DNA from: Bacteroidales bacterium
GTDB taxonomy: Bacteria; Bacteroidota; Bacteroidia; Bacteroidales; JAADJA01
DNA: 34,786 nt
Direction: 5' to 3'
Assembly: GCA_026984135.1 (NCBI GenBank)
Contig: JALSSR010000241.1
Location: forward strand, 1 to 34,786
The stretch's first letter is position 1, and every line of letters begins with the position of its first letter. Both the position numbers and the translations under genes were made by a program. The notes below the pieces were generated by a model that saw only the letters and a list, made by a program, of their open reading frames with translations, searched no databases and was not told where the DNA came from. Of the stretch, positions 196 through 18,412 are shown in pieces.

Positions 196-3100
196 ATGAA
201 TAACAGAATTACTTTACTACTTTTATTTGTAACTTTAGTTACATTTAGTTATCAATCTTATGCGCAAATAAACATTCAATCGGGCGTAGATCCGAACGCA
301 ATGGTTGAAAATATTGTAGGAGACGGAGTTATTTTTGATAACGTACAATACACAGGTGCCAATGCTGCCAGAGGAATTTTCTCTAACGGAGGCACAACAA
401 ACCTTGGTATTGAAAGCGGTATATTTCTTACATCGGGTGCAGGATATGTAATTCCCGGACCAAACGGACCCGGGTCATGCTCGGCAGGCTCCAATAACGG
501 AATGGGAGGAGATGCAACACTTACAGGACTGGCAGGCGTTTCGACTTATGATGCCTCGGTTTTGCAATTTGACTTTATACCCGAATCCGATACGTTAAGG
601 TTTAAGTATGTTTTCGGATCGGAAGAATATAACGATTTTGTTTTTTCAACTTTTAATGATGTGTTCGGATATTTTGTTTCCGGCCCTAATCCCAATGGTG
701 GGTTTTACAGTAATGAAAACGTTGCATTAATTCCCGGCACTAATATTCCGATAGCCATAAATAATGTAAATAACGGTTTTTCAAGTTGTGATGTAATTCC
801 CACAGGACCGTGTACTCATTGCGAATACTATGTTGACAATACCGGTGGTATGACACTCGAATACGATGGCTTTACTGCTGTTTTAACAGCCTGGATAATG
901 GTTGTTCCTTGTGAAACATATCATATTAAAATGGCTATCGCCGACGCCGGTGACCATATTTACGATTCCGGTGTTTTCATTGAAGAAAACAGTTTTGAAA
1001 GTCCGAAAATAGATGTTGAAGCTGAACCAATTCCCGAAGGAGTTTCAGACAATATGGTTGAAGGATGTGTTGAAGCGGATATTATTTTCAGATTACCCAA
1101 CTCAAGCTATGCACCTATAACCATCAATTATGAAATAACAGGTACTGCAGATCCCGACCTGGATTTTGAGGAGCCCATTCCTACGTCGGTAACGATTGAA
1201 GAAGGAAATGACAGTGCATTCATTCATGTTGCTCCTATAAAAGATGGAATTTTGGAAGGTGATGAAACACTTATCTTTATCATTACAAACGAACTCGGTT
1301 GCCAGGTGAGATATGACACGGTTGAATTCATCATTGTGGATTATGTAGATATGGTGCTTGACGTTACACCCGACATGGCTGTCTGCGAGGGACAGACCGT
1401 TGAGCTGACAGTGGAAGCATTTAACGGCATTTCTCCCTATTTTTATCAATGGTTAGAACCATCCGTTGAGAATGACACCATCGAGGTTACACCTGAAGAA
1501 ACCACGACATACAATGTTCAAGTCACGGATATGTGTGACGGTTTTATTGAGGATTCAGTCACCGTTGTTGTTCTTGAAATGCCCGAACTGGAACTTGGTA
1601 ACGATACGGTTGTCTGTGGTGCCGATTCCCTTGTTTTACATGCCGGTGGAGGTTTTGCTTCCTACCAGTGGCAAGACGGCTCAACCGACTCTATTTATGT
1701 TGTCACACAGCCCGGCACTTACTGGGTGCAGGTTATGGCTTCTAACGGTTGCGTAGCCGGAGATCAGATTACGGTCAATTTCTTCCCCCCGATATTTGTT
1801 AACCTGGGTGCAGATACCGTTATATGTCAGGGAGAAATGGTAACCCTTGATGCAGGGGCCGGTTTTGAATCCTATTATTGGCAGGATGGTTCAAATCAAC
1901 AAACATACGATGTTACACAAACAGGAACTTATTGGGTACAGGTTTTTGATGCCAACGGCTGCACCGCATTTGACACAATACAGGTCAACGTTGATAATGA
2001 TGCACCGAATTTCAGTCTGGGCGATGATTTGCAACTATGTTACGGAACGACATATACATTATCAACCGGACTCCCCGGAGGTTATGAATATGAATGGCAG
2101 GACGGATCAACGGATTCGGTCTTTATTGTGACCGAACCCGGACTTTACAGTGTAGCCGTACAAGGAGGATGCGGAACAGGATATGATACAATCTTGGTAA
2201 ATTACTTCCCGCCGGTCAATGTTAACCTGGGACAAGATACCACAATGTGCCAGGGCGAATCAATTACACTTGACGGAGGAAACGGATTTATAAGTTACAC
2301 CTGGCAAGACGGCTCAACTTCACAGTACCTGAATGTTTATGAAAGCGGAATATATTCGGTACAGGTTACGGATGCTTACGGATGTGACGGCGGAGATACA
2401 ATATCCGTTGAAGTTGCAAAAAATGTGGATCTCATTCCCGATTCCAGTTTCTGCGAAGGAGAAACCATTGTTCTGGATGCAGGCTATGGCTTCGACAGCT
2501 ATCAATGGAGTACCGGCAGTACTTCCCAGATTGTTCATGCCACCGAAGGCGGAACATACTGGGTCAATACATCCTATGTTTTCGGATGTCCTTCTTCCGA
2601 CACTACGGTGCTCACAATGTTTCCCCTTGCCAATGCCGATCTTGGAGGTGACAAAGATATTTGCGAAGGAGATACTGTTTTATTGACAGCACCCGATGGC
2701 AATTTTGAGTATTACTGGAATGATGTACAAACTGACGAAAATACTTATACGGTTACACAAGGCGGTACATATAAACTAACGATGAAAAATTATTGCGGCG
2801 AAGATTCGGACGAGATAGAGATCACGGAATATCCCAAACCCGATGTAAACCTCGGTGAAGATCAGGTTTTATTTCCCGGAGAATCTGTTCAGTTGGATCC
2901 CGGTGAATTTGTTTCATATCTATGGATGGACGGCTCTAGCGACAGATATTACACTGTATCCTACGACACTTATAACGATTCGATATATACGGTAGAAGTA
3001 TGGGATGCCCATTGCAAGAATTCAGCTTCGGTTAAAATAGAAATATTCAATGTTGAAGTTCCTAATGTTATTACTCCCAACGGAGATGGTTACAATGATA

Positions 3101-3333
3101 CTTTCAGACCGGGTAAAGGCTGGAGCGGTATTAAAACGAGCAAGATTGTAATTGTTAACAGATGGGGAGGCAAAGTATGGGAATCTTCCGACTTCCAGTC
3201 CGGATGGGATGGAAAAGTAAACGGAAGACCGGTTGATAACGGCACTTATTTCTGGGTGCTTGAGGTTACATACGGTCCGAATAATGAGAAGAAAATATAT
3301 AAAGGAAGTCTTACGGTATTGGGTACGGATTAG
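196..3333 (+). CDS. Choice-of-anchor L / Calx-beta / Ig-like repeat adhesin with T9SS type B sorting domain
   Basis: Predicted secreted, cell-surface protein of 1045 aa. Residues 1-23 form a signal peptide ending YAQ. Residues ~28-268 look like a choice-of-anchor L domain (the F-G-S-E-E-Y-N-D-F-V motif and the conserved SGPN segment are visible). Residues ~270-384 resemble a Calx-beta domain (G-D-E-T-L). Residues ~385-950 hold about eight Ig-like repeats of ~65-70 aa, with the pattern LGxDTxxCxG, LDAG, WQDGSTDS, GTYWVQV, GC, DT. Residues ~952-1045 are a gliding-motility-associated C-terminal domain (TPNGDGYNDTF, NRWGGKVWES, GWDGKVNG, GTYFW), the signal for type IX export and surface attachment. 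It is followed after 86 bases by the solenoid adhesin gene on the same strand, so the two may be co-transcribed. Ligand unknown. The domain calls are from memory of the families; the sorting domain is the most certain. Confidence 0.9.
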   Translation: MNNRITLLLLFVTLVTFSYQSYAQINIQSGVDPNAMVENIVGDGVIFDNVQYTGANAARGIFSNGGTTNLGIESGIFLTSGAGYVIPGPNGPGSCSAGSNNGMGGDATLTGLAGVSTYDASVLQFDFIPESDTLRFKYVFGSEEYNDFVFSTFNDVFGYFVSGPNPNGGFYSNENVALIPGTNIPIAINNVNNGFSSCDVIPTGPCTHCEYYVDNTGGMTLEYDGFTAVLTAWIMVVPCETYHIKMAIADAGDHIYDSGVFIEENSFESPKIDVEAEPIPEGVSDNMVEGCVEADIIFRLPNSSYAPITINYEITGTADPDLDFEEPIPTSVTIEEGNDSAFIHVAPIKDGILEGDETLIFIITNELGCQVRYDTVEFIIVDYVDMVLDVTPDMAVCEGQTVELTVEAFNGISPYFYQWLEPSVENDTIEVTPEETTTYNVQVTDMCDGFIEDSVTVVVLEMPELELGNDTVVCGADSLVLHAGGGFASYQWQDGSTDSIYVVTQPGTYWVQVMASNGCVAGDQITVNFFPPIFVNLGADTVICQGEMVTLDAGAGFESYYWQDGSNQQTYDVTQTGTYWVQVFDANGCTAFDTIQVNVDNDAPNFSLGDDLQLCYGTTYTLSTGLPGGYEYEWQDGSTDSVFIVTEPGLYSVAVQGGCGTGYDTILVNYFPPVNVNLGQDTTMCQGESITLDGGNGFISYTWQDGSTSQYLNVYESGIYSVQVTDAYGCDGGDTISVEVAKNVDLIPDSSFCEGETIVLDAGYGFDSYQWSTGSTSQIVHATEGGTYWVNTSYVFGCPSSDTTVLTMFPLANADLGGDKDICEGDTVLLTAPDGNFEYYWNDVQTDENTYTVTQGGTYKLTMKNYCGEDSDEIEITEYPKPDVNLGEDQVLFPGESVQLDPGEFVSYLWMDGSSDRYYTVSYDTYNDSIYTVEVWDAHCKNSASVKIEIFNVEVPNVITPNGDGYNDTFRPGKGWSGIKTSKIVIVNRWGGKVWESSDFQSGWDGKVNGRPVDNGTYFWVLEVTYGPNNEKKIYKGSLTVLGTD

Positions 3334-3419: not shown

Positions 3420-6400
3420 ATGCATATTATGAGTCTTAGACATATCTTATCACTCACGGGAATTTTATTTGCAATGACACTGTCAGCTCAGACAGATTAT
3501 TTTTGGGTTGGCGGCCAGGGAAACTGGGCAAACTTAAACAACTGGATAACCAGTTCGGGATTACCTCCCGAAGAGGTTCCCGATGCAAACGACAACGTTA
3601 TCTTTAATAATAACTCCTTTAATCAGGATAATGATACGGTTTTTATTTTCACAAAGAATCCCGAATGCAAGAATATGATCTGGGAAAACCTGAAATATAA
3701 TGTTGTCCTTGCCGGGGGTGCCGATACTACTTCTTTAAGTATTTACGGTTCTCTTACATTTGAGCCGAAGGTCTTTAATGATTACAGAGGAAAGATCAAC
3801 TTTCAGGCGGGAACAACCGGTAATACGATTACCTGCTCGGGAAACAGATTTTTTGCCGACATATATTTTGACGGTGATGGTGAATGGATTCTGCAAGACA
3901 CCTTAATGACCTGGGACACAACAGACTGGCAGGCAAGGGTAGCTGACCCCACGTTGGAAAATCCCGCACCTGACCCTATTATCTATCTGCAAAAAGGAAC
4001 ACTCAGAACAAACCAACAAGTAATAATTGCCGAGGGTTTTATTTCTTCAAAGGAAAATTTGAGAGAACTGGATATGCAAGGCTCTGAATTCTTCATTTTA
4101 GGCCCCTGGGTTGTCAATGCAGCAGGATTAACAATGAAATCTGCAAATTCCCTTGTCACTATGAGAGGGACAATGTCCAATTTTAACGGAAATAATTTAG
4201 TATATAATAATGTTATCAAGTTGCCTGACGAAAACGGAAATGCCGGCATTATAGAATCAATTGACCTTAGAAGCACATTTAATGTTGTTGAATATAAAGG
4301 CGGCGGAGTTATGCAGGCATCAACAACTCCCGGACAGTTAGGACATTTTACGGTTGATACGGTAACAATGCTTTGGGGTCCGGCTCCGAATGCCATTTCC
4401 GGTTTTGTGGATTCAATAAATTACGGAAGGTATGACGGTCCCGGTTTCCTTAATGTTAACGAATCATACCTTAAAAAATTCATACTCAATGTAGGCGGAA
4501 AACTTGACGGTAAAGACAATGATATTGATTCCATATTCTTCAAAGACTTATATTCATTCGGTCCGGCGGCAAAAGGTATGATTACCGGGAAAAACTATGT
4601 TGATTACCTCTATTTTCAGACTTTGGGTGTTTTATCTTCTTATCAGGGTTTAAGTAATACCGTGATAGATGCAGTATATGCTGCCGATGGTTTTTTCGGA
4701 GGAAAAAATACAATAACCAATTTATATCTTGGCAGCGGTTTCTGGTATCAGTTTGGAATAGATTCTCTCGACAATTCAGGAAATACTACAAACACTAATG
4801 TTCAGACAATTCTGCAATCAATTATGGTAACCGGAGGTTGTGAAGGAGGTATGACCTGGCTGACTTCTACCAAGAAAACAGTTCAAGCAAATATGGTAGT
4901 TCCGTCATCCGGTCTGAGTACAAATTATCTTGCTGTCAGAGATATCAGTAATAAAGGTGGGACAGTTACGGTAAATAACGGAATTGATATGGGCAATAAT
5001 AGCGGCTTTGTCATTAACGAAATTACAAACAGAGACCTTTATTGGGTTGGCGGCCAGGGTAACTGGAATGAAACGAATCATTGGTCATTAATCTCAGGAG
5101 GTAGCGGAGGTGAATGCCCGCCGACAATCAGGGATAATGTTTATTTTGATAATGCCGGACTCGGAAATCGTGACACCGTATTTGTCAATGTTAAATATGG
5201 GAAATGCCGTGATATGATTTGGACGGTTACCGATACTGCGGTTATCTCCAGCCCGATTAATTATGACTTTATGCAACCGGTAGATACTACAAATCTCCGT
5301 ATTTGGGGCTCTCTTCAATACACCGACCCGATGGAATCTTCGTTCTATGGAAACTATTTCTTCGAATCTCAATATGACACTTTACCGGATGGCAGTTATA
5401 GCCCGCAAACCATTGATTTTGCAGGAAAAACAGCTAATAAACAGATGACATTTTACGGTGATAACGGGGCTTGGAAATTCCTTAGCGACGTAGTAAACAC
5501 TTATGATACCATATTTCTAAAAATGGGTAATCTGAATACAAACGGGTTTGATGTTACAGCCTATAACTTCAATTCAATGGATACCCTTAATAGAATACTC
5601 TCACTTGATTCATCTACATTTATTGTGCGGCAAAAAGCATCCGATGCCTGGTTCGTAAATCATTATCATCTTGATTTTCATAGCGGCACTTCTACAATTA
5701 AAGCATTAGGAGACCTCTTTTTAATGCCCGGTGAACCACCTAACCAATGTCATGTCAGAAGTATGAATGCCGATAGTATGGTATATTATAATGTAGAATT
5801 TCATTCTTTGCAGGCCTTGCTAAAAAGTGAAGGATACTGTATTTATAACCTTGTTGATTATATGGACGCGGCTCCTCTCGGACAACTTGTGGGTTTATCG
5901 GTTATTGATACTCTTACTTTCCATGATGGTGCTGCAAATTGTGCAATAAAAAACAGCGATACTATTAACGTGTTAATGGCTTATGGTTTAAATGACACTA
6001 TTCTTGGCGGCCAGCATATTGTAAATGAAGCCAATTTTTTCAATGAAGGTTTTGTTTTCGGATATAACCGGATTGGACAATTGAATTTCTTCAAAAAGGG
6101 CACAATGATTTTGCAAAATGATGTTGATTCTGCCATTTTTTATAGTGACGGTTATATCCGCGGAAACAACACATTTGACACTTTGGTCTTTACTCCGGGA
6201 AATAAATACTTTTTACAGCATAATGGAGTACAGACAATTACAACAAAGTGGAGTGCCGAAGGTACTTGTACGGCTCCTATACGTATCCAGTCCGATTCCA
6301 TCGGAACTCAGGCAATGGTAAGTGCGGAGTATCCCGGCGTGGAAATTAAATATACATCCTTCCGTGACCTTTATGCCGTTGATAATAATGGAAATACTCC

Positions 6401-8804
6401 ATATACGGCAAGCCATTCAAATGATATGGGTAATAATACCAACTGGAGTTTTACGGAAATTGATGATGACATTTATTACTGGATACAGGGTACGGGAAAC
6501 TGGAGCGATGCCCAGCATTGGTCACTGACAAGTGGCGGTCCTCCCCTTGACTGTCTTCCCCGCGAATTGAATACTGTTGTCTTTGACGATAATTCATTCA
6601 TAAACTCCGATGATGTTGTAACAATTGATGTTCCCAATGCCTCCTGCCTGAGTATGTGGTGGAAACAGACTCCTGAAAGTGGATTATATCCCACATTTAC
6701 AGGCGAGGACACTACCAATCTTTTTATCTACGGCTCTCTTTTGCTAAACGACAGTATGGATTATGATTATCGTGGTCTTATTTTCTTCGACGAAATTTCC
6801 GGAGACAAAAAAGGTCTTGGAACAGATACAATTACATCGAAAGGGAAAGTTATCCTTAATGATATCCGTTTTCAGGGAATTAATGGAGAATGGGTACTTG
6901 CCGACAGTCTGACTCTTCTGGTGATGGATCCTACAGTATTCAGAACTATTTATCTGGAACATGGAAAACTTGATACGAAAGGATTCAATGTCTCCTGCGG
7001 ATCCTTTGAATCGGAATACAACAATGAAAGAGGTCTTACAATTACAAATTCCGTAATTAACGTAACAAATCCATATGATTACGGCTGGATAGTTGACGGT
7101 GATAACCTTACTCTTGAAGCCGGTGGTTCTACGATAATCAATAATGGCATTTATAGTTTTGTCAAAAGTTATGATGGTGACTATCTGGAATATAACGACA
7201 TTATAATGGCAGCACCTCTTGATAGCCTGATCAACCGGAATAATATTGTGGAATACAATGTGGTCCATATTGACGGACCTGCAAACTGGTTTGGAGGAAA
7301 CTTCATAGCAGATTCCGTTATTTTCAAGGGTATCAGCTCGGGAATGTACTTGACGTCACAGTCTAACGTTGTCATTCTGGATACAACAAATTGTAAAATA
7401 AGTGACAACCATCATGTCAACAAAGGAATAATCAATTTCTTCGGAACGGTAATAGGCCATAATGATTTTGACTATTGTATATTCAATTCGGATGGTGCTT
7501 TCAGAGGAGAAAACACATTCGACACTTTAATCCTTACTCCCGGAAAAGGAAATACATTTTGGTTTGAGGAAGAAAAATCACAGACAATTTATGACTCTTT
7601 GTTTTTAAGAGGAAATCAATGTCAAAACATTACAATTAAGTCGTTGAACCTTAGCAAGACCGCATACCTTAAAAAGGATGGAGGAATTGTACAATGCGAT
7701 TTCATGAATGTTTATAATGTGGGAACTACGGGAACTACAACATTTTATGCAGGGAAAAACAGCACACCGCTTCCAAATCCTAATATGCCACCACCGGGAT
7801 GGATATTTGACGATTCACAGGGGTACATTTATGGATTCCCCGATGATCCGGTACACTTTTGTTACGGCGATGTTTACGAAATACCATCGGTAAACTTTAA
7901 CGGAGATTCAAAAACACAATACATTTGGAGAAATATGTCGGGTGACACAATACACATAGGCCCGGTATTATCCATAACGGAACCCGGAATTTTCTCACTT
8001 GAAGCTCTATATACTGCTGAATGCTCTTTTGGAGATACGATTACGGTAGAGGCTGTTGATCCTCCGGTTGTGACTCTCAATCCGGGACCATATTGCGAAG
8101 GAGACATTATTAATGTTGAAGTTTCGCCATCAGATAAAACATATAGTTATCAATGGTCAAACGGCTCAACAGACGAAAACCTTGAAGCTCAACTTGATTT
8201 AAACGGCAACCTAAGTGTACAGGCCACGGAATCGGAATTCGGTTGCAAATCGGCAGATACAACATTTATGCAGGTAGAGCCTGTGCCCAAGCCCGATGAC
8301 AATCTTCCACCCGACCAAACGCTGTTGTTTGGAGAAACAATAACACTTGATGCCGGCGAAGGTGACACTTATAACTGGTCGGCAGATGACCCGCTGATAA
8401 CAATTCCCGACCCGACCCAAAGATATATTACTGTAGGAGGCACCCCGGACCCGGGCGTAACTTATCAGGTTGAAGTTACTCTCGGAATTTGCTCCGGACA
8501 GGGTGAGGTTAAAATATCGGAATACCCGAGATGTAAATGTGATGTTCCCAGTGCATTTTCACCAAATGGAGATGGAGAAAATGATATTCTTTTTGTCAGG
8601 GGTAGTGGCTTGCACGACGTCACATTTTTAGTCTATGACAGATTTGGAAAACTTGTATTTGAGACGGATAATCTTGAAAACGGATGGGATGGAACCTTCA
8701 ACGGGAGCAAGCAACCTAAAGAAGTTTACACTTTCTACCTTAAAGGTGTTTGTGAAGACGGTGGAGTTATTGAGAAAAAAGGAAACATTACAATCATCAG
8801 ATAA
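3420..8804 (+). CDS. Giant three-module solenoid-type surface protein with T9SS type B sorting domain
   Basis: 1794-aa predicted surface protein. The signal peptide ends LSAQ at about residue 24; the ATG at 3429 is an equally good start. Three tandem modules begin with a W-[VI]-x-G-x-G-N-W motif at W29, W542 and W1021. Each runs through beta-strand-rich sequence to a conserved closing block (N-x-F-D-T-L, TPG, QTI, then a 'DMGNN...W' ending in modules 1 and 2). Modules 2 and 3 carry a Cys pair after the opening motif (ECPPT with GKCRDM; DCLPRE with ASCLSM). Residues ~1470-1700 hold Ig-like repeats and ~1706-1794 a type B sorting domain (SPNGDGENDI, YDRFGKLVFET, GWDGTFNG, KGNITIIR). Stop and the next start overlap by one base (TAATG), pointing to translational coupling with the PorP/SprF gene. 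I know no assigned function for the module; an adhesin role is inferred. It is paralogous to the 1774-aa protein downstream. Confidence 0.88.
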   Translation: MHIMSLRHILSLTGILFAMTLSAQTDYFWVGGQGNWANLNNWITSSGLPPEEVPDANDNVIFNNNSFNQDNDTVFIFTKNPECKNMIWENLKYNVVLAGGADTTSLSIYGSLTFEPKVFNDYRGKINFQAGTTGNTITCSGNRFFADIYFDGDGEWILQDTLMTWDTTDWQARVADPTLENPAPDPIIYLQKGTLRTNQQVIIAEGFISSKENLRELDMQGSEFFILGPWVVNAAGLTMKSANSLVTMRGTMSNFNGNNLVYNNVIKLPDENGNAGIIESIDLRSTFNVVEYKGGGVMQASTTPGQLGHFTVDTVTMLWGPAPNAISGFVDSINYGRYDGPGFLNVNESYLKKFILNVGGKLDGKDNDIDSIFFKDLYSFGPAAKGMITGKNYVDYLYFQTLGVLSSYQGLSNTVIDAVYAADGFFGGKNTITNLYLGSGFWYQFGIDSLDNSGNTTNTNVQTILQSIMVTGGCEGGMTWLTSTKKTVQANMVVPSSGLSTNYLAVRDISNKGGTVTVNNGIDMGNNSGFVINEITNRDLYWVGGQGNWNETNHWSLISGGSGGECPPTIRDNVYFDNAGLGNRDTVFVNVKYGKCRDMIWTVTDTAVISSPINYDFMQPVDTTNLRIWGSLQYTDPMESSFYGNYFFESQYDTLPDGSYSPQTIDFAGKTANKQMTFYGDNGAWKFLSDVVNTYDTIFLKMGNLNTNGFDVTAYNFNSMDTLNRILSLDSSTFIVRQKASDAWFVNHYHLDFHSGTSTIKALGDLFLMPGEPPNQCHVRSMNADSMVYYNVEFHSLQALLKSEGYCIYNLVDYMDAAPLGQLVGLSVIDTLTFHDGAANCAIKNSDTINVLMAYGLNDTILGGQHIVNEANFFNEGFVFGYNRIGQLNFFKKGTMILQNDVDSAIFYSDGYIRGNNTFDTLVFTPGNKYFLQHNGVQTITTKWSAEGTCTAPIRIQSDSIGTQAMVSAEYPGVEIKYTSFRDLYAVDNNGNTPYTASHSNDMGNNTNWSFTEIDDDIYYWIQGTGNWSDAQHWSLTSGGPPLDCLPRELNTVVFDDNSFINSDDVVTIDVPNASCLSMWWKQTPESGLYPTFTGEDTTNLFIYGSLLLNDSMDYDYRGLIFFDEISGDKKGLGTDTITSKGKVILNDIRFQGINGEWVLADSLTLLVMDPTVFRTIYLEHGKLDTKGFNVSCGSFESEYNNERGLTITNSVINVTNPYDYGWIVDGDNLTLEAGGSTIINNGIYSFVKSYDGDYLEYNDIIMAAPLDSLINRNNIVEYNVVHIDGPANWFGGNFIADSVIFKGISSGMYLTSQSNVVILDTTNCKISDNHHVNKGIINFFGTVIGHNDFDYCIFNSDGAFRGENTFDTLILTPGKGNTFWFEEEKSQTIYDSLFLRGNQCQNITIKSLNLSKTAYLKKDGGIVQCDFMNVYNVGTTGTTTFYAGKNSTPLPNPNMPPPGWIFDDSQGYIYGFPDDPVHFCYGDVYEIPSVNFNGDSKTQYIWRNMSGDTIHIGPVLSITEPGIFSLEALYTAECSFGDTITVEAVDPPVVTLNPGPYCEGDIINVEVSPSDKTYSYQWSNGSTDENLEAQLDLNGNLSVQATESEFGCKSADTTFMQVEPVPKPDDNLPPDQTLLFGETITLDAGEGDTYNWSADDPLITIPDPTQRYITVGGTPDPGVTYQVEVTLGICSGQGEVKISEYPRCKCDVPSAFSPNGDGENDILFVRGSGLHDVTFLVYDRFGKLVFETDNLENGWDGTFNGSKQPKEVYTFYLKGVCEDGGVIEKKGNITIIR

Positions 8805-9829
8805 TGAATAAGAAAGCCTTAAAGATAACTACTATATTTGTAATAACACTTATTTCAATTCAATTGGGAATAAGCCAGGATGTTCATTACACACAGATGT
8901 ATAACACTCCGTTATATATCAATCCGGCACTTACGGGAAATCATCAATGCGATTTCAGGGCGGGAGTCAATTTCAGGCAGCAGGCAGCCAGTTTCACGGT
9001 TCCTTTTGAAACATATACTGCCTGGGGAGACGGCAGATTGTATCCCGGCTTTCTTGGAAGAAGATCTTGGATAGGATTAGGTGGCAATCTTTATTACGAC
9101 AATGCCGGTGACGGTGAGTTGAAAAAGATCCAGGGAATGGGATTTTTCTCTTTCAGTCAGGGATTTAATTCGGATAATTCCCTCTATGCAAGTCTTGGAA
9201 TAGGTCTTGGCGTTACTAACCGCAGCATTGATATGACAAAGCTGATCTTTGACAATCAATGGGATCCCATTAAGCTTGAATTTAATTCCGCTTTAAGTTC
9301 AGGAGAACAATTAACTGCAAACTCCGTTTTTTATCTGGATATGAACTGGGGCTTGCTTGTCCATCACCTTGTTACGGAAAAATTCCAATATGAGATAGGT
9401 GCAAGTATGAGTCATTTCAACAGGCCACAGGAATCTTTTTTCGGAGAACCTAACAAGGTCGGCATTAAATATATAGCACACGGCGATGTCCAATGGTTAC
9501 TCTCGAAAAACATTCTTTTTATGCCGGCCGTCTATTTTATTTACCAGGAAAATGTGTCGGAGAGTATGGTAGGTGGTAACTTTGCCTTCGGAACTAAGGG
9601 TGTGAAGTTACTTGCCGGTTTATGGACAAGAGTGGGAAGAGATGTTATTCCTATAATAGGCTTGGAGTACAACTATTTCGGTCTTCAGTTTTCCTATGAT
9701 ATAAATGTTTCATCGCAGCATGCAGCATCCAACTACCGTGGTGGTTTCGAGTTTTCTCTCGTTAAAAAATTCTGCTATTCAACAAGAACATCAACAAAAC
9801 GGGAACCCTGTAAGTTCCTTGAGTTTTAA
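8804..9829 (+). CDS. PorP/SprF family type IX secretion outer-membrane protein
   Basis: 341 aa. A signal peptide (~1-24, ending GISQ) precedes the family's opening signature: QDVHYTQMYNTPLYINPA closely resembles the Q-[DQ]-x-H-[YF]-[ST]-Q ... NPA start of PorP/SprF proteins. The rest alternates short aromatic, glycine-rich beta strands typical of an outer-membrane barrel, and the C-terminus is also family-like. In Flavobacterium, SprF is needed for surface export of the type B sorting-domain adhesin SprB. By inference this protein is the dedicated partner of the four type B proteins around it. Its start overlaps the upstream stop by one base, so its dose is probably tied to that adhesin. Length is normal for the family. 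Confidence 0.93.
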   Translation: MNKKALKITTIFVITLISIQLGISQDVHYTQMYNTPLYINPALTGNHQCDFRAGVNFRQQAASFTVPFETYTAWGDGRLYPGFLGRRSWIGLGGNLYYDNAGDGELKKIQGMGFFSFSQGFNSDNSLYASLGIGLGVTNRSIDMTKLIFDNQWDPIKLEFNSALSSGEQLTANSVFYLDMNWGLLVHHLVTEKFQYEIGASMSHFNRPQESFFGEPNKVGIKYIAHGDVQWLLSKNILFMPAVYFIYQENVSESMVGGNFAFGTKGVKLLAGLWTRVGRDVIPIIGLEYNYFGLQFSYDINVSSQHAASNYRGGFEFSLVKKFCYSTRTSTKREPCKFLEF

Positions 9830-9921
9830 TTTTTTTTTGCTGACTTTTCTTTTATGTAAATTATTTTTCCTAATTTAGCACTGTAAACTGATGCTGAATA
9901 AAAATGCAAATTTCTTCGAGA

Positions 9922-9929
9922 TATATTTG
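9922..9929 (+). promoter_or_regulatory. Candidate -7 element for the second adhesin unit
   Basis: TATATTTG is an exact TAnnTTTG match. The region about 19 bases upstream has no clear TTTG, so only the -7 half is convincing. It lies in the 142-base gap after the PorP/SprF gene and would start transcription near 9936, about 36 nt before the ATG at 9972. It suggests the downstream adhesins form their own unit. Confidence 0.5.
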
Positions 9930-9971
9930 CTATAATTCAGATAATTACATAAAATAGAATTTGCAAAGTTT

Positions 9972-12900
9972 ATGCGTTTTAGTATAATTCATTTGCCAAT
10001 GAAAAGCAGTACTAAACCTATATTACTCTTACTCGCAATTATTACTTCTGTGGTGGTTTCAACACCTTCATTTGCAAGTGATTATTACTGGATTGGAGAT
10101 AGTGGAAACTGGTCTGATATTAACCATTGGGCACAATCTTCGGGAGGAACGGTTTTGCACAATACCCCTCCTACTGCCGATGATGATGTTTATTTTGACG
10201 GCAATTCCTTTTCAAATTCCGGTCAAATAGTTTTTGTTAATGCTGAGAATGCGGTTTGCAGAGATTTAAACTGGACAGGAGCGCTTCATCATCCTTATTT
10301 TGAAAATTCAAATTCGGAAAACCTGAGAATTTTCGGGTCAATTACTCTTATTGAAAATATGGATTTTCTTTATGACGGAACCATCACCTTCGAATCGCCG
10401 GAAACAGGTAATACAATATTACTTGCAGGGCATTCTTTTTTGAACAATATATATTTTGAAGGAATAGGGGGAGAATGGACTCTATCTGATTCTCTAATGT
10501 CGGAAAGTAATATCTATCTGAATTACGGGACTTTAAATACAAACAACAATACTATTGTCTGCACCAATTTTTATTCATCCAATCCTAATGAAAGGACATT
10601 AATACTTGGCTCATCCCATATTTTCGCAAGCAACGGATGGAGTTTGAACGGATTGAATCTGAATTTCCAGTCCGGGACATCAATTATATATATCAATTAT
10701 TCACTTTCAAACATTGAGGGAGATAAGCTTATATACAATTCGGTCGTATTTACAGGAACATCCTCTACGTTGCAAAACAGTTCGGTTTATGTTTATTATG
10801 ACTCGGTCGTTTATGAACATGTAGGAAATGCTTTTGGGGACTGCTATATAAACTATCTGAAATTTACGGAATACGGCACCGTAAATGACAGCGACACTAT
10901 TCATTATGCTCTTTTCGGAAGCTGCGGTGTAAACAAAATAAGCGGAAGTCACATTATTGACACGGCAATATTTAATTGTAACGGATGGATTGAAGGACAA
11001 AGCACAATAGATTATTGTTATGTTGGATACTTTACCGACATAATTGACAACAACGTGATTAACTATCTTTTTGCCGGTGATACTGCACATATAAGAGGCA
11101 TAAATAACATAGGACATTCATTCTTCAATAGAATGGTCTATTTCCGCGAAAACAATGATGTTGAATATGCATATCTTAATTGCGACGGAGATTTCGGCGG
11201 AGAAAATTCATTCGACACTTTAATTTGCACACCGGGATTTCAATACATTTTTGAATTTAATAAAACACAAACAATCAACGACAGTCTTGCCATTAAAGGT
11301 ACCTGCGAAAGACCGATATGGATAAAGTCCTCCTACAACGGGGCAAGAGCAATAATTCATAAAACAAATGGAGCCGTAAAAGGTGAACACCTCTCGTTAA
11401 GAGATATTGAAGCTACGGGAAGCGTTCCGTTCGAGGCATTGCAAACGGTTAATCTCGGCAATAATGTAAACTGGAATATTGATGCTCTATCACCGCGAGA
11501 CCTTTACTGGGTAAACGGCAGCGGAAAGTGGACTGAATCTGCTCATTGGGATTTAAGTCAAGGTGGTGCCGGCGGAGAATGTCCTCCGACCGAACTTGAT
11601 AATGTATTTTTTCCGGGTGCCGGCGGAACAATTACTGTTGATATCAGAAATGCCGTTTGTCATGATATGGACTGGTCAGGAGCTTCAAATCCTTATTTTT
11701 CCGGTGATGATACTCTGAACCTGAAAATATACGGTTCGCTGAAGTTCATTCAAAACATGAACAATGGCTTCCTTGGTGAAGTTCATTTTGAGGATACAAC
11801 AGGCGGACAAACGGTGGAATCTGCAAAAAATCAATTCCTTAACAATGTGAGGTTTCAGGGAAGCAACGGCGGCTGGAAACTACTTGATAGGATTTCGACT
11901 TACGACACGATTTATCATGACCGCGGATCGCTAAGTACCAACGGCGAAAGAATACAGTGCGGATATTTTTACGTCAGAGATACATGTTACAAAGAACTTT
12001 ATCTTCATAGTGATACAATTAAGGCTACCGGGCAGTATACAACCATTTTTGTTGACGGTTCAAACCTTGAACTCCATGCCGATTCCTCGGTATTAGTTAC
12101 AACAACCGATAATGCCATTATTCTTAATAAAAACGCACAAAGACAAATCTATCATAATGTTCATCAACACGGAGAATTCGCTCAAATCATAAATGAAGCT
12201 TTTTGTGTTTTTAATCTGGTGGAGCATTACGGTAATAACAGTTCTATACATCTTAATTGTACCATTGACACAGCTGTTTTTTACGGGAAATACGGTTATG
12301 TTTATGACAGTGATACAATAAAAACGGCTATCTTTTATGATTTTGACGGAAAGTTACAAGGAACTCATGTTGTTGAAATTGCCTATTACTACAATGATGG
12401 TACTGCAAAAGGAAATAATCAAATTGATACCGCCTTGTTCTTCAAGAGAGGTTATATCATTGAAAATAATATTATAGATACGACCATTATCAAAAATGCT
12501 GCTTTAATAGAAGGCAATAACATTATCAGAACCGCAACATTACTTGACAAAGGGCTCTTCCATGGTAATAATGAATTTGACGATCTTTCACTCACTTATG
12601 CAAAAGAGTACTATTTCGAGCATGATTCAACACAAACAATAAACGAAAAATTCATTGCAAACGGGCGTTGTACAGGCAACATTATCCTTATGTCGGACTT
12701 TGACGGAAAGCGGGCTTATTTAGAGAAAACCAACGGAAACGTTGAGATTGAGTATGCCAATATCAGGGATTTACAAGCTGAAGGAAACATACCTTTCATT
12801 GCAAATAGTTCCGTTGACCTTGGCAATAATGAAGGTTGGGAGATTAGTACTGCAGAATCAATTGCATTATTTTGGGTTGACGGATCAGGAAACTGGAGTG

Positions 12901-15296
12901 ACTCCCTTCATTGGGCACCGGTCAGCGGTGGGACAGGAGGATATTGCATTCCCTCTCCCATTGATGATGTCTATTTTGACGACAGTTCATTTTACCAGCA
13001 GCAGTTGGGAAACATTGTCACACTTGACATTTCACATCCAAATTGCAGAAATATGAGTTGGGCCGGTTCTGACATTTATGATCCCGTTTTTACCGGACCG
13101 GCTGAAAACGGAATGTATATATACGGCTCTCTGCTTTTTAACGACTCTTTGAACTTAAACTATGAAGGTATCACATATTTCGAGTCGCAAGAAGAAGGAA
13201 GAACAATTGAAATGAAAAACCGGTCATTTAATAATGATGCTATTTTTAGAGGAAGAAACGGCGGGTGGGCATTAACCGATGATTTTACCACCTTGAACAA
13301 TCTTATCCATAAACATGGTAAGCTAATCACTAACGGTTATGAAGTTTATTGTAATAATTTTCTTTCAATTGACACAAATCAGCGACAACTATTGCTCGAC
13401 ACTTCTAAAATAACAGCCTATGCAGCCTGGGAAGTCAACACGCAAAATCTTGACATTGATGCGGATTCTTCTTTCATTTCTGCCGGAAGCAAAATTCTGA
13501 CATATAATAACGACATTTCAATACAATCAAAATACAAGGATACTTTAGTTTACAATGATGTTAAGCTTCTTGATGTAGCCGGACTGACAAACGACAGCGT
13601 TTATTGCATTTTCGACGAAGTACATTTTAACACAGCAGGGTCAATTAACGGCGACTGTTTTATTGACACCGCCTTTTTTGGAGGTTCCGGGACAATAAAC
13701 GATAATGACTCGATTAACCATGTCCATTTTTTAATGGCCGGGACAATTAATGGTGGTCATCATGTTATTAGCTCTTCTCTGTTTGAGGGAGTGGGTACTG
13801 TAACAGGCAGCAATGAAATTAATTCCGCAATCTTTAACTCAAATGCCAACATTGCCGGAAATAACGTAATAGACACAACAATAATCTATGGAAACGGCTC
13901 CATCACCGGTGATAATGTTTTCAACAGTGATGTATATATTTACGGTAGCGGTAATATTTTCGGAACCAATTTGATACAAAACTACCTTGAAATACACGGT
14001 CTTGCCTCAATATACCAGACAAATAATATTCACGAAGCCCTTTTGCTGAATTGGGGCAATATCGGCGGATATAACAATTTTGACATCTTGACTTTAACAC
14101 CCGGGAAAACATACACGCTAACCGACGGAACAACCCAAACGATAAACCAGCATTTGAATATAAGAGGGAATAATTGTTTCCCGATAACTTTAAGATCATC
14201 AACACAAACACAACAAGCGGATATTTCAATGCCTTCTTCGGCAGATACCGTTTCGGGTGATTTTATTATTATGAGGGATATAAACGCAACCGGAGGAAAT
14301 ATCTACTTTGCCGGAGGAAACAGTAACGACATATCAAACAATACGGGCTGGATATGGGATGATGCTCCCGATTATATCTACGGTTTAAGTTTTGATACGG
14401 CATATCTGTGCAGTGGTGACTCACTAATAATCACAACTGAAAATTTCAACCCCAATGAATCCACCTATTTCGAATGGGACGACGGAACCATAAGCCCCAC
14501 TTTTACGGTATATGAACCCGGTGAGTACTCCGTTGTTGCACATTTTTCGGATGACTGCTCCGTTCCGGATATGGTAACCGTTTTAGGTTTACCCTCACCG
14601 GAATTGGACCTTGGAGAAGATGGTGAAATTTGCGAAGGGCAACAGTTTGAAATAGAGACACAGGGTGATTTTGAAGAATACCTTTGGCAGGACGGAACAA
14701 CAGAAAATTCCGTTGTCGCAACAACAACAGGCATATACTGGCTTGAAGTGACAGCAGAAAACGGTTGCAAAACCCGCGATTCCGTATATCTGACAGTCAA
14801 CCCCTCCCCTCACCCCCAACTTGGTAATGACACGATAATCCATAACGATGAATTCGTAATCCTTGACGCCGGATATCCTTGTGGGGTATATTATTGGTCA
14901 ACCGGCGACTCTTCTCAAATAATAAAAGCGGAAGGTGTTGAAGGCGGTGAGGAGTACTGGGTTGAAGTGTATTATGCAGGTTGCCCCGGATATGATACCA
15001 TAGTAATTGATGAATATCCCTATTGTACTGCGGCTGTTCCTACCGCTTTCTCTCCTAACAATGACAACATAAATGACATTCTTTATGTAAAAGGCTCGGG
15101 AATAATGACTCTCGATTTCAGAATTTATAACAGGTATGGAGAATTGGTTTTTAAGACTGACAATATGGAAACCGGATGGGACGGCACCACCAACGGAGAA
15201 AAACAAAATGAAGAGGTTTATATATATTATTTGAAAGCCGTTTGCTTCGACGGCTTAGTGACTGAAAAAAAGGGAAATATAACATTGTTGAGATGA
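9972..15296 (+). CDS. Giant three-module solenoid-type surface protein (paralogue) with T9SS type B sorting domain
   Basis: 1774 aa. The first ATG gives a 10-residue lead before MKSSTKPILLLL; the ATG at 9999 gives a more compact signal peptide (ending SFA) and may be the real start. Opening G-[NK]-W motifs lie at W40, W513 and W968. Each module contains a solenoid-like stretch (residues ~289-422, ~757-877, ~1222-1376) with turns of 17-18 residues of the form G-x-I-x-G-x-N-x-I-x-x-A-x-F. Each then closes with N-x-F-D-x-L, QTI, a C-x-x-[PN]-I segment and a '[LI]-x-N-N-x-x-W' end. Ig-like repeats follow (~1470-1680), then a type B sorting domain (~1688-1774: SPNNDNINDILYV, YNRYGELVFKT, GWDGTTNG, KGNITLLR). 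Its last four bases overlap the next start (ATGA). Probably a surface adhesin exported with the upstream PorP/SprF; the ligand is unknown. Confidence 0.88.
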   Translation: MRFSIIHLPMKSSTKPILLLLAIITSVVVSTPSFASDYYWIGDSGNWSDINHWAQSSGGTVLHNTPPTADDDVYFDGNSFSNSGQIVFVNAENAVCRDLNWTGALHHPYFENSNSENLRIFGSITLIENMDFLYDGTITFESPETGNTILLAGHSFLNNIYFEGIGGEWTLSDSLMSESNIYLNYGTLNTNNNTIVCTNFYSSNPNERTLILGSSHIFASNGWSLNGLNLNFQSGTSIIYINYSLSNIEGDKLIYNSVVFTGTSSTLQNSSVYVYYDSVVYEHVGNAFGDCYINYLKFTEYGTVNDSDTIHYALFGSCGVNKISGSHIIDTAIFNCNGWIEGQSTIDYCYVGYFTDIIDNNVINYLFAGDTAHIRGINNIGHSFFNRMVYFRENNDVEYAYLNCDGDFGGENSFDTLICTPGFQYIFEFNKTQTINDSLAIKGTCERPIWIKSSYNGARAIIHKTNGAVKGEHLSLRDIEATGSVPFEALQTVNLGNNVNWNIDALSPRDLYWVNGSGKWTESAHWDLSQGGAGGECPPTELDNVFFPGAGGTITVDIRNAVCHDMDWSGASNPYFSGDDTLNLKIYGSLKFIQNMNNGFLGEVHFEDTTGGQTVESAKNQFLNNVRFQGSNGGWKLLDRISTYDTIYHDRGSLSTNGERIQCGYFYVRDTCYKELYLHSDTIKATGQYTTIFVDGSNLELHADSSVLVTTTDNAIILNKNAQRQIYHNVHQHGEFAQIINEAFCVFNLVEHYGNNSSIHLNCTIDTAVFYGKYGYVYDSDTIKTAIFYDFDGKLQGTHVVEIAYYYNDGTAKGNNQIDTALFFKRGYIIENNIIDTTIIKNAALIEGNNIIRTATLLDKGLFHGNNEFDDLSLTYAKEYYFEHDSTQTINEKFIANGRCTGNIILMSDFDGKRAYLEKTNGNVEIEYANIRDLQAEGNIPFIANSSVDLGNNEGWEISTAESIALFWVDGSGNWSDSLHWAPVSGGTGGYCIPSPIDDVYFDDSSFYQQQLGNIVTLDISHPNCRNMSWAGSDIYDPVFTGPAENGMYIYGSLLFNDSLNLNYEGITYFESQEEGRTIEMKNRSFNNDAIFRGRNGGWALTDDFTTLNNLIHKHGKLITNGYEVYCNNFLSIDTNQRQLLLDTSKITAYAAWEVNTQNLDIDADSSFISAGSKILTYNNDISIQSKYKDTLVYNDVKLLDVAGLTNDSVYCIFDEVHFNTAGSINGDCFIDTAFFGGSGTINDNDSINHVHFLMAGTINGGHHVISSSLFEGVGTVTGSNEINSAIFNSNANIAGNNVIDTTIIYGNGSITGDNVFNSDVYIYGSGNIFGTNLIQNYLEIHGLASIYQTNNIHEALLLNWGNIGGYNNFDILTLTPGKTYTLTDGTTQTINQHLNIRGNNCFPITLRSSTQTQQADISMPSSADTVSGDFIIMRDINATGGNIYFAGGNSNDISNNTGWIWDDAPDYIYGLSFDTAYLCSGDSLIITTENFNPNESTYFEWDDGTISPTFTVYEPGEYSVVAHFSDDCSVPDMVTVLGLPSPELDLGEDGEICEGQQFEIETQGDFEEYLWQDGTTENSVVATTTGIYWLEVTAENGCKTRDSVYLTVNPSPHPQLGNDTIIHNDEFVILDAGYPCGVYYWSTGDSSQIIKAEGVEGGEEYWVEVYYAGCPGYDTIVIDEYPYCTAAVPTAFSPNNDNINDILYVKGSGIMTLDFRIYNRYGELVFKTDNMETGWDGTTNGEKQNEEVYIYYLKAVCFDGLVTEKKGNITLLR
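13635..14100 (+). repeat. Nine-turn 17-18-residue solenoid repeat in module 3
   Basis: Codons 1222-1376 of the 1774-aa protein read as about nine consecutive turns of 17 or 18 residues. Typical turns are GTINGGHHVISSSLFEGV, GTVTGSNEINSAIFNSN and ANIAGNNVIDTTIIYGN. The alternating small, branched hydrophobic and Asn positions are what a right-handed beta-helix would show. The repeat is seen in the translation; the fold is inferred. Divergence between turns at DNA level suggests it is old. Confidence 0.7.
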
Positions 15297-18200
15297 AAAC
15301 AATATTTCAAAATATCGTTTTAATATTTTTGACAATGGTTTCCTTTTCAGGTTTTCCACAAAATGAAGCCGTAATCTGGTATTTTGGTAGTCATGCGGGA
15401 TTAGACTTCTCGGGTGGAGTTCCAGAACCATTAACCGACGGACAGATCTCAACATCGGAAGGTTGTTCAACCATATCTGATCAAAATGGGGATCTTCTGT
15501 TTTATACAGATGGAGTTCATGTATGGAATAAAAACCATATATATATGCAAAATGGCACTCAACTAATGGGAAACTGGTCAGCTTCACAGTCAAGCCTTGT
15601 TGTAGCCAATCCGTCTAATAATGGCATTTTCTATATTTTTACAGTTGATGCTATGGAAAATTACCTTACAAACGGATTCAGATTCTCAGTGGTTGATATT
15701 AATCAGAATAATGGACTTGGTGCCGTTACTGGTAAAAACATATTGCTATTCACTCCTGCTTGCGAAAAAATAACTGCAGTGAAGCATAACAACGGATCCG
15801 ATATTTGGGTAATTGCACATAAATGGGATTCGGATAAGTTTTATACATACCTCGTCACCTCAAGTGGTGTGTCAGAAAATCCGGTAATCAGTTCAGTTGG
15901 ATTGGAGCATACCGGCTCATATAGAAATGCGATAGGTTATATGAAAGCTTCGGTTCAGGGAGACAGAATAGCTCTTGCAATCGAAACAGATTCAAAAATA
16001 GATATCCTTGATTTTGATAATCAAACAGGATTATTGTCTAACTCCATAAACTTTGATTATCCCGGAGCAGGCAGAGCATATGGTGTAGAGTTTTCTCCGG
16101 ACGGAACAAAGCTATATGTCTCCTCCTGGGATATCAATAAACCAATGTACCAGCTAAATTTGCAATCAGGTACTCCCGGAGGAATTTACAGTTCTGCTAT
16201 TTTAATTGCTTCAGGCGGAGGAATCCAAAGAGCAGCTTTACAGCTAGGACCGGATGGTAAAATTTATCTGGCAAGGAGATTTGAAAATTACGTTGGGGTT
16301 ATCAATAATCCAAATGAAGAAGCTCCATTGTGTAATTTTGTCGAAGAGGCTGTCTCTCTCTCAGGAAAACAATGTTTATTAGGCTTGCCGAATTATTTGC
16401 AAAGCTACTTTTACCCTTTTCAAACACAGGACTTCCTTTTTAATGAAACCTGTTTTGGTGATACTACTTTTTTCAACCTTACGAATACAACAGAACTGAT
16501 TTCTGTCGAATGGAACTTTGGAGATCCTTTATCGGGTAGCGCAAATACTTCAACAGACTGGAATCCATATCACATTTACTCTTCATCCGGCACTTTTACT
16601 GTAACATTAATATCAATTTTTTCTACAAATTCCGACACTGTTAACAAAGAGATCACAATTAATGCGTTACCTGATGTCAACCTTGGCAACGATACCTCCT
16701 TCTGCTATAATGATTCTTTCATACTTGATCCGGGACAAGGTTATGACCAGTACTTATGGCAAGATGGATCCACAAATTCAACTTTCACTGCCGATACATC
16801 AGGATTGTATTGGGTTCAGGTCACAAATGAATTCGGATGTTCTGCAACCGATTCCATTTCACTGGAAACATTTCCAACTCCCGACATTGATATTGGTAAT
16901 GACACTTTGATTTGTATTGGAACAACTCTGGAAATAAATGCCGGTTCGGGTTTTGAAAGCTACCTTTGGAGTACCGGTTCAACAGACTCGACTATTACTA
17001 TAAACGCTTTTGGAACTTACTGGGTTGAAGTTACCAATGAATACGGATGTTCAACAACGGACTCAATAACTATCGGCTTATATCCCGATGCTTCAGCTAT
17101 TAATCTCGGTGGCGATACAACTTTTTGCTACGGGCAACAATTTATTCTTAATGCAGGCAGCGGCTACACATTCTATGAATGGCAGGACGGCTCAACCGAT
17201 TCGATATTTATTGCAGACACAGCAGGTGTATATTATGTTCACGTTGTTAATCCCTGTGGCGAAGATTGGGATACCATTAATCTGTCTCTTTATCCCATTA
17301 CTGAAATTGATATCGGTAACGACACTTCGGTTTGTCTGAGTGACGGTTTTGTATTGCTTGATCCCGGAATGGGGTTCCAATCATACCTTTGGCAGGACGG
17401 GTCGGTAAACCAGTTCTATTATGCTAACCAAACAGGTGATTATTGGGTGGAAGTTGTTGACGAATACGGGTGCCCCGTATCCGACACAATTTCCCTCTTT
17501 TTCATTGATCCCGATCCCGGACTCGGGCAGGATACTACAATTTGCAACGGAGATGAGATAACCTTCACGGCGGATGACGGGTTTGTAACTTACCTTTGGA
17601 ATGACGGAACGAACGGAGTTGGGTTCACAACGGGAAGCGAAGGTATTTACTGGTGTGAAGTGACCGACAGTCTGGGCTGTACAGGTGCTGATTCCGTCAT
17701 ATTGGATTTGTTGTATCCGCCTGAAATATCACTTGGGAATGATACTGCAATTTGTACGGGCGATTCGCTGTTATTGAATGTCCCTTATGACTCTTCATTT
17801 GTCTTTTTATGGTTTGACGGTTCTGACGATTCCGTAAAACTTGTTTCCGATGAAGGATACTATTGGGTACAGGCTTCCAATATCTGCGGAAGTGATATTG
17901 ATTCGGTTATTATCTCACTTCTACCTCTGCCGCAAGTATTTATAGGCAACGATACCATTATCGGCATAAAAGATGAAATCACTCTTGATGCGGGAAACGG
18001 GTTTGAGAGTTATCTTTGGAACACCGGTTCGGAATTTCAATACATAACCGTTTCGGATTCGGGAAATTACTGGGTCAGGGTATCAGACGGCATCTGCTTT
18101 AATTCCGACACAATTAATGTTGAAAAAGTTAAATGCGATTTATTCATACCCATTGTCTTTACACCCAATTGGGATAATTATAATGATTACTTTTATGCTG

Positions 18201-18412
18201 TTACTTCGGACGACATTACGGACTTTGACCTGACAGTTTACAATCGCTGGGGAGAGCAAATGTGGGAGACAACGGATGTGACCGGAAAATGGGACGGTAA
18301 GAAAAACGGGAAAAATTGTGATACGGGAACTTACTTTTGGGTTACAAAATATAAATGTTTATTATCGAATAAAACTTTCACTTTAAAGGGGAGTGTTACT
18401 TTGCTGAGATGA
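15293..18412 (+). CDS. Propeller-like head, PKD and Ig-like repeat surface protein with T9SS type B sorting domain
   Basis: 1039 aa, coupled to the upstream gene by a 4-base ATGA overlap. The signal peptide covers ~1-23. Residues ~25-370 look like a beta-propeller (GVEFSPDGTKLYVSSWD and LGPDGKIYLARR are typical blade motifs). Residues ~380-455 form a PKD domain (WNFGDP ... HIYSSSGTFTVTL). Residues ~456-945 are seven Ig-like repeats of about 70 aa (IGNDTLICIG, AGSGFESYLWSTGSTDS, GTYWVEVTNEYGC). Residues ~947-1039 are a type B sorting domain (TPNWDNYNDYF, YNRWGEQMWET, KWDGKKNG, KGSVTLLR). This arrangement is common in Bacteroidota surface proteins of unknown ligand. It closes the four-adhesin block. 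Sorting domain and repeats are sure; the head fold is inferred from motifs. Confidence 0.9.
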   Translation: MKTIFQNIVLIFLTMVSFSGFPQNEAVIWYFGSHAGLDFSGGVPEPLTDGQISTSEGCSTISDQNGDLLFYTDGVHVWNKNHIYMQNGTQLMGNWSASQSSLVVANPSNNGIFYIFTVDAMENYLTNGFRFSVVDINQNNGLGAVTGKNILLFTPACEKITAVKHNNGSDIWVIAHKWDSDKFYTYLVTSSGVSENPVISSVGLEHTGSYRNAIGYMKASVQGDRIALAIETDSKIDILDFDNQTGLLSNSINFDYPGAGRAYGVEFSPDGTKLYVSSWDINKPMYQLNLQSGTPGGIYSSAILIASGGGIQRAALQLGPDGKIYLARRFENYVGVINNPNEEAPLCNFVEEAVSLSGKQCLLGLPNYLQSYFYPFQTQDFLFNETCFGDTTFFNLTNTTELISVEWNFGDPLSGSANTSTDWNPYHIYSSSGTFTVTLISIFSTNSDTVNKEITINALPDVNLGNDTSFCYNDSFILDPGQGYDQYLWQDGSTNSTFTADTSGLYWVQVTNEFGCSATDSISLETFPTPDIDIGNDTLICIGTTLEINAGSGFESYLWSTGSTDSTITINAFGTYWVEVTNEYGCSTTDSITIGLYPDASAINLGGDTTFCYGQQFILNAGSGYTFYEWQDGSTDSIFIADTAGVYYVHVVNPCGEDWDTINLSLYPITEIDIGNDTSVCLSDGFVLLDPGMGFQSYLWQDGSVNQFYYANQTGDYWVEVVDEYGCPVSDTISLFFIDPDPGLGQDTTICNGDEITFTADDGFVTYLWNDGTNGVGFTTGSEGIYWCEVTDSLGCTGADSVILDLLYPPEISLGNDTAICTGDSLLLNVPYDSSFVFLWFDGSDDSVKLVSDEGYYWVQASNICGSDIDSVIISLLPLPQVFIGNDTIIGIKDEITLDAGNGFESYLWNTGSEFQYITVSDSGNYWVRVSDGICFNSDTINVEKVKCDLFIPIVFTPNWDNYNDYFYAVTSDDITDFDLTVYNRWGEQMWETTDVTGKWDGKKNGKNCDTGTYFWVTKYKCLLSNKTFTLKGSVTLLR

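Follow-up and report, generated by a model that had tools for sequence, protein, structure and literature searches.

A repeated beta-solenoid module of an uncatalogued family in two giant type IX secretion cargo proteins of a Bacteroidales bacterium, with relatives in phages

The window, a stretch of 34,786 nucleotides from the draft genome of an uncultured Bacteroidales bacterium, carries two genes for giant secreted proteins on its forward strand, P0001 (3420-8804, 1794 aa) and P0002 (9972-15296, 1774 aa). Between them lies a gene for a PorP/SprF-family outer-membrane protein (8804..9829, +; PF11751 at E 1.9e-33, TIGR03519 at 151 bits against a cut-off of 90.55), whose start codon shares one base with the stop codon of P0001. 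Upstream of the pair is a gene for a protein with a type B C-terminal domain (CTD), choice-of-anchor L and Ig_7 (196..3333, +; NF038133 at E 1.2e-75, CHU_C at E 1.9e-18), which is likely part of the same operon as the giants. Downstream is a gene for another type B CTD protein, with PKD_4 and Ig_7 (15293..18412, +); its first 4 bases are also the last 4 of P0002, and it likely belongs to the same operon.

Both giants consist of a leader, three tandem copies of one module and a C-terminal secretion signal, all of the following features lying on the forward strand. In P0001, a signal-peptide-like leader (residues 1-24, 3420..3491) is followed by module 1 (3495..5024; profile match of 569 bits, with position-1 orthologues in other genomes), module 2 (5034..6461; 600 bits) and module 3 (6471..7817), which has few solenoid turns and was matched in two pieces (440 + 144 bits). 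The next stretch (7818..8540), probably Ig-like to judge from its sequence, has no family match, and its equivalent in P0002 touches Ig_7 below the cut-off. P0001 ends in a type B C-terminal signal of the type IX secretion system (T9SS; 8541..8792; CHU_C of Pfam at E 5.8e-15, TIGR04131 of NCBIfam at 1.3e-14). P0002 has a leader (residues 1-36, 9972..10079), module 1 (10080..11489; 649 bits), module 2 (11499..12854; 650 bits), module 3 (12864..14366; 626 bits), which has the most solenoid turns (at about 13689-14108), and a type B signal of its own (15036..15284; CHU_C at E 5.5e-15, TIGR04131 at 5.4e-14). Across the six copies the profile matches thus span 440-650 bits.

The first-pass annotation of this DNA had described six module copies, three per giant, and translation, BLASTP and the profile confirmed both their number and their places. 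The copies are 449-510 aa long, and each of the 15 pairwise comparisons gives an alignment of 416-467 columns at 27-36% identity, with BLASTP E values from about 1e-18 to 3e-74. The sequence marks by which they had been recognised proved less uniform than described. Opening tryptophans do lie at W29, W542 and W1021 of P0001 and at W513 and W968 of P0002, the motif at W513 reading W-V-N-G-S-G-K-W, but the first Gly is missing from the opening at W40 of P0002, W-I-G-D-S-G-N-W. Both residues of the Cys pair are present only in modules 2 and 3 of the two giants (4/6), where they might form a disulfide that pins the cap region; the first Cys is absent from module 1. Four copies match the closing block [DN][MLI][GS]NNxxW exactly, whereas P0001 module 1 has F as the last residue of the block and P0001 module 3 has a degenerate version (PLPNPNMPPPGW). 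A 17-18-residue period, taken earlier for the core of the module, holds up in four copies, the three of P0002 and module 2 of P0001, in their second half (autocorrelation z of 3-5 at lag 17, with harmonics at 34/35/52), but is absent from the first half of all six, and the turns are an optional expansion, not an invariant core. Their number ranges from about two recognisable turns in each of P0001 modules 1 and 3 to at least six in P0002 module 3.

An AlphaFold2 model of P0002 module 2, built with 73 sequences, reached a mean pLDDT of 96.6 and a pTM of 0.90 and is all-beta, with about 43 short strands from end to end: a confident beta-solenoid, as the first-pass annotation had suggested. In model residues ~275-370 (12315..12602, +), which form the variable-length insertion and in which the period test and the strand pattern agree, the strands are arranged as regular 5+7-residue pairs of 17-residue turns. 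Two modules modelled in tandem gave a pLDDT of 93.3 and a pTM of 0.68, so each module is well defined and the relative orientation of the two less so.

Searches with the single-module model by Foldseek returned no solved structure at E <= 0.001, the best solved neighbour being the passenger of the autotransporter EspP (probability 0.89, E 0.029, TM 0.37/0.22; not significant). The first-pass annotation had suggested a right-handed coil, and the neighbours point both ways: right-handed autotransporter passengers rank first (E 0.03, not significant), and left-handed hexapeptide (LbH) proteins appear as well, both in Foldseek and among the profile matches. Like the passengers of type V secretion (EspP, Hbp), the module is an elongated beta-solenoid; unlike them, it forms discrete repeated units with their own caps, which are exported by the T9SS and not through a C-terminal barrel. 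The giants have no Pfam or NCBIfam autotransporter match, and their C-terminus is a T9SS signal. With the solenoids of bactofilin and LbH proteins (YdcK, eIF2B, GlmU) the module shares a turn of 17-18 residues, but outside the insertion it has no counterpart there, and the matches all fall below the family cut-offs. Only the solenoid turns (positions ~250-363) give weak profile matches, to bactofilin and to left-handed hexapeptide proteins (YdcK, eIF2B), as any 17-18-residue beta-coil would; bactofilin (PF04519) stayed below its gathering score among 73 modules (best E 0.0035, 20 weak matches) and gave no match on the window proteins.

The first-pass annotation had not recognised the unit as a named domain, and searches of Pfam, NCBIfam and the PDB agree, since no family in them covers the module end to end. 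The six window modules give no match above the cut-off of any Pfam or NCBIfam model, and Pfam covers none of 122 modules scanned singly (73 long and 49 short, the six window modules included). An existing domain family was ruled out, as nothing in Pfam, NCBIfam, PHROGs or the PDB exceeded a cut-off across the module. The literature searched by motif strings does not describe the module, and that searched by domain words does not name it. The fold class and the secretion system are already known; the domain family is uncatalogued in the libraries searched. With no model for the module in Pfam, NCBIfam or the PHROGs tested, such proteins are at best named by their C-terminal signal, and a module profile would annotate hundreds of proteins at once.

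The module occurs in a long and a short form. The 207 relatives taken from bacterial loci divide at 420 aa into 126 shorter ones, whose lengths peak at 340-380 aa, and 81 longer ones, most of them of 440-480 aa. Short relatives (326-378 aa) lack profile positions ~235-355, the region of the 17-residue turns, and keep the opening and closing blocks; the solenoid turns were therefore ruled out as the defining core, and the constant unit is one of ~350 aa in which the regular turns vary the length. Both forms are present in the source genome, where the two window giants are of the long form and a third paralogue, on contig C64, has two short modules and one that covers most of the profile. The residues conserved in both module sets comprise W, G, P, F, S and C along with a nearly invariant Asp (D36), and one Arg is conserved in long-form modules only; W, G, P, F and C look structural and mark no binding site. 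In our best explanation the module opens with an N-terminal cap (W-x-x-G-x-G-N-W...W), continues with a solenoid body and, optionally, a stack of 17-residue turns, whose count determines the module length, and closes with a C-terminal block that has LGNNxGW at its end.

Three copies are the rule in other genomes as well. Exactly three modules were counted in 44 of 54 full-length ORFs, four in 4, five in 3 and two in 2, the latter because one gene is split into two frames, with fragments only in one. The split gene, in an Ignavibacteriae MAG (locus L079, 7090-12637), is a three-module gene in two overlapping frames within module 2, a frameshift or an assembly error. The best match of a module in other proteins stands at the same array position for 151 of 159 modules, and the best match lies inside the same protein for only 12 of 159, which rules out recent tandem duplication within each protein. 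The prevalence of three-module ORFs and the same-position matches place the triplication before the spread of the family, and the three array positions have evolved separately; their fixed order allows one to ask what each position does.

The module was found in 17/17 genomes of the genus searched, in 17/45 well-complete genomes of the genus and order, and in 15/296 sampled genomes of the phylum, and its bacterial relatives come from Bacteroidales, Saprospiraceae, Flavobacteriales, Ignavibacteria and Chlorobiota. Culturable species with a three-module gene include Neolewinella persica, Lewinella cohaerens and Portibacter lacus, and Labilibaculum euxinus has a longer relative with an adjoining PorP. 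In a MAG labelled Planctomycetota, a 3.7-kb contig bears a three-module ORF (L066); this contig could be misbinned and come from Bacteroidota. The module is also present on plasmids of Hymenobacter, Chryseobacterium, Aureibacter and Bernardetia (NZ_CP114768, NZ_CP015200, NZ_AP025308, NZ_CP147018); the annotations of the proteins that bear it there read type A CTD, type B CTD or M6 metalloprotease.

A signal-peptide-like leader of 15-60 aa precedes the module in 67 of 69 bacterial relatives. The type B signals of the two giants exceed the curated cut-offs (CHU_C, 55.6 and 55.7 bits against 27; TIGR04131, 54.1 and 52.1 against 35), in keeping with the link to type IX secretion proposed earlier; elsewhere, some bacterial module proteins have the annotation of type A CTD cargo or of an M6 metalloprotease. 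CHU_C flags in the relatives were taken from single-sequence comparison and library searches; an iterated home-made profile (603 matches) drifted, and its flags were discarded. The source genome encodes SprA of the T9SS translocon (2563 bits, contig C182) and, next to another PorP, a GldJ-family protein (484.5 bits, over the cut-off). The T9SS cargo load of this 4.17 Mb draft comprises 150 Por_Secre_tail matches, 34 CHU_C matches and about a dozen strong type B signals. Only five PorP/SprF genes are present for the dozen or so strong type B signals, so that one PorP is likely shared among several type B proteins.

Among 20 loci with the solenoid-rich form (L040-L059), 17 have a PorP gene beside the giant gene, nearly all within about 80 bases or overlapping. 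In one related genome (G013) the order is giant, PorP, type A propeller, giant, type B, type B, and in another (G056) it is PorP, giant, type B; a PorE-like gene was ruled out at the former locus, the 710-aa gene after the PorP encoding a type A YCF48-like propeller protein. Short-module relatives mostly lack a PorP within some 8 kb (L110 and L117 are the only loci that have one), so the PorP does not depend on the module, and an obligate link is ruled out for the module overall but holds for the solenoid-rich subfamily. In experiments on known type B proteins, CTD fusions of SprB and Fjoh_3952 needed the cognate PorP/SprF for their secretion, and complexes of SprB with SprF and of PG1035 with PorP were isolated (PMC12618676, PMC9143113); in F. 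johnsoniae one shuttle is common to three orphan substrates, and type B substrates are termed known or predicted adhesins (PMC12618676). The giants resemble SprB-SprF and Fjoh_3952-Fjoh_3951 of F. johnsoniae and PG1035-PorP of P. gingivalis in having a Sec leader, a type B signal and an adjoining PorP/SprF, and in being very large repetitive secreted proteins; unlike those pairs, their repeat is a ~350-500 aa beta-solenoid module in three ordered copies, and one PorP stands between two giants. By analogy with them, we infer that the pairing of type B CTD and PorP applies to the PorP at 8804..9829, which would serve both giants.

The module is shared with phages, which we regard as the most interesting part of the finding. 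Foldseek against viral models matched an uncultured Caudovirales protein at E 1.9e-15 (BFVD A0A6J7WY70 among the matches), and two scans of IMG/VR confirmed 216 and at least 492 relatives. In the viral set of 159 loci (157 viral-collection contigs and two isolated phages), 168 ORFs match the profile, 166 of them at E <= 1e-10; reversed ORFs gave 0 matches, which rules out an artefact of composition. Five module starts were counted in 42 viral ORFs, commonly in ORFs of about 1,720 aa. The two isolates, Limnohabitans phage DC31 and Methylophilaceae phage P19250A, are phages of Betaproteobacteria, with profile matches at E 1e-120 and 1e-32, respectively. The DC31 ORF (PQ492658.1, 1-4123, minus strand; locus L279) has 1374 codons and four modules and runs off the start of the record; it is not annotated as one gene, and two small ORFs on the opposite strand are annotated in its place. 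The phage module proteins tested matched no PHROG family. Their genes stand in tail-gene neighbourhoods: the P19250A gene follows those for host specificity protein J and a tail fibre, the DC31 ORF is near genes matching tail-fibre and tail-fibre-assembly PHROGs, neighbours at locus L262 match virion structural and tail PHROGs, and the module ORF at L204 is downstream of a tape-measure-like ORF.

Viral modules come directly after the start Met, with a leader of at most 8 aa in 123 of 135 and MANRYWVGG as a typical start, and no viral ORF was found to have a type B signal resembling that of P0001. In a tree of module first halves, 79 of 90 non-redundant viral modules fall into one clade (support 0.95); those outside it include L160, L202, L203, L204 and L218, some of them among bacterial modules. 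The module protein at L218 (7926-10463), on a viral-collection contig, has a signal-peptide-like leader and may represent a bacterial contig or a secreted copy. The Caudovirales, DC31 and P19250A proteins thus carry the same module as the window by sequence and structure, and in tandem copies, but unlike the giants they lack a leader and a T9SS signal and are encoded among tail genes. The suggestion in the first-pass annotation that the module might be specific to type IX secretion is ruled out by these leaderless copies, found in viral contigs and in two isolated phages. Leader-bearing bacterial and leaderless phage copies offer a clean, testable case of one fold in both.

We interpret the giants as PorP-anchored adhesive surface rods, each of three modules, an Ig-like stretch and a type B signal, and give this reading a probability of about 0.62. 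It builds on the module homology, the predicted fold, the T9SS signal, the PorP linkage, the three-module order and the SprA and GldJ genes, all of which are observed and together make up the architecture of a rod; from these we infer its function, including what it binds. The three ordered modules, the Ig-like stretch and the signal would form one rod. Its route would lead first through Sec and next through the type IX system to the outer membrane, where the PorP/SprF protein, whose gene separates those of the giants, would receive it; the rod would then stay on the cell surface, and its modules would most likely bind a surface, a polymer or a neighbouring cell. The adhesin label of type B proteins has been given mostly by analogy. 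Tail-region proteins of such size commonly contact the host surface, so the phage module proteins, lying in tail regions, support a surface-binding role and strengthen the case for adhesins. A broader reading, which we hold tentatively and at somewhat less than even odds, is that the module is a general receptor-binding beta-solenoid doing the same surface-sticking job in phages and Bacteroidota by two unrelated delivery routes, either leaderless in virions or via the type IX system; the turn insertion would then be a region of adjustable length or binding, and the three-module array would have been fixed early, with its positions specialising afterwards.

The adhesive rods could also be SprB-like motility adhesins, carried along the cell by the gliding machinery, which would be a special case of the adhesive-rod explanation and no contradiction of it. 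Like the mobile substrates of F. johnsoniae, they combine type B CTDs with a PorP/SprF and no adjoining PorE-like gene (PMC12618676), and the source genome has the GldJ-family protein beside another PorP, but the rule on the absence of PorE comes from one species, and we consider this role rather unlikely. It is unlikely, too, that the giants are passive spacers or surface-coat rods with no binding face. Their fixed module number and order and their strongly structural conservation would fit such rods, and the tandem model touches the S-layer protein RsaA in Foldseek, although not significantly; against this, the module is N-terminal in phage tail-region proteins, where a pure coat role is less likely, and the giants have no other N-terminal domain for binding.

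Many right-handed beta-helices are lyases, and the tandem model has PL6 lyases among its Foldseek matches at E 0.2-2, but a polysaccharide-acting beta-helix enzyme (lyase or glycosidase) repeated three times is very improbable, since what is conserved is structural (W, G, P, F, C and one Asp) and includes no catalytic-type set of residues, D36 is the sole nearly invariant polar residue in both sets besides S and C, no Pfam lyase family matches, and the modules differ at 64-73% of positions. Least credible of all is that the phage link is an artefact of bacterial contigs wrongly called viral: IMG/VR contigs are predictions, five of the loci named above lie outside the main viral clade and L218 has a leader, but this idea is refuted for the two isolated, named phages and runs counter to the single clade of 79/90, the absence of a P0001-like type B CTD, the 123/135 proteins that start within 8 aa of the module, and the virion structural and tail PHROGs beside L262.

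Three further genes of the window lie downstream of the giants. A 311-aa protein (19019-19954, +), encoded directly 3' of a small type A CTD protein, has an N-terminal match to the N-terminal domain of the Bdellovibrio mosaic adhesive trimer (44.8 bits, under the cut-off of 60). At 29770-32676 (-) is a 968-aa type A CTD protein with SBBP beta-propeller repeats. A 208-aa protein (32774-33400, +) matches the C-terminal nuclease part of archaeal Hef / XPF (PRK13766, E 3.8e-52), and a lone ORF for this nuclease part is unusual in a Bacteroidota genome.
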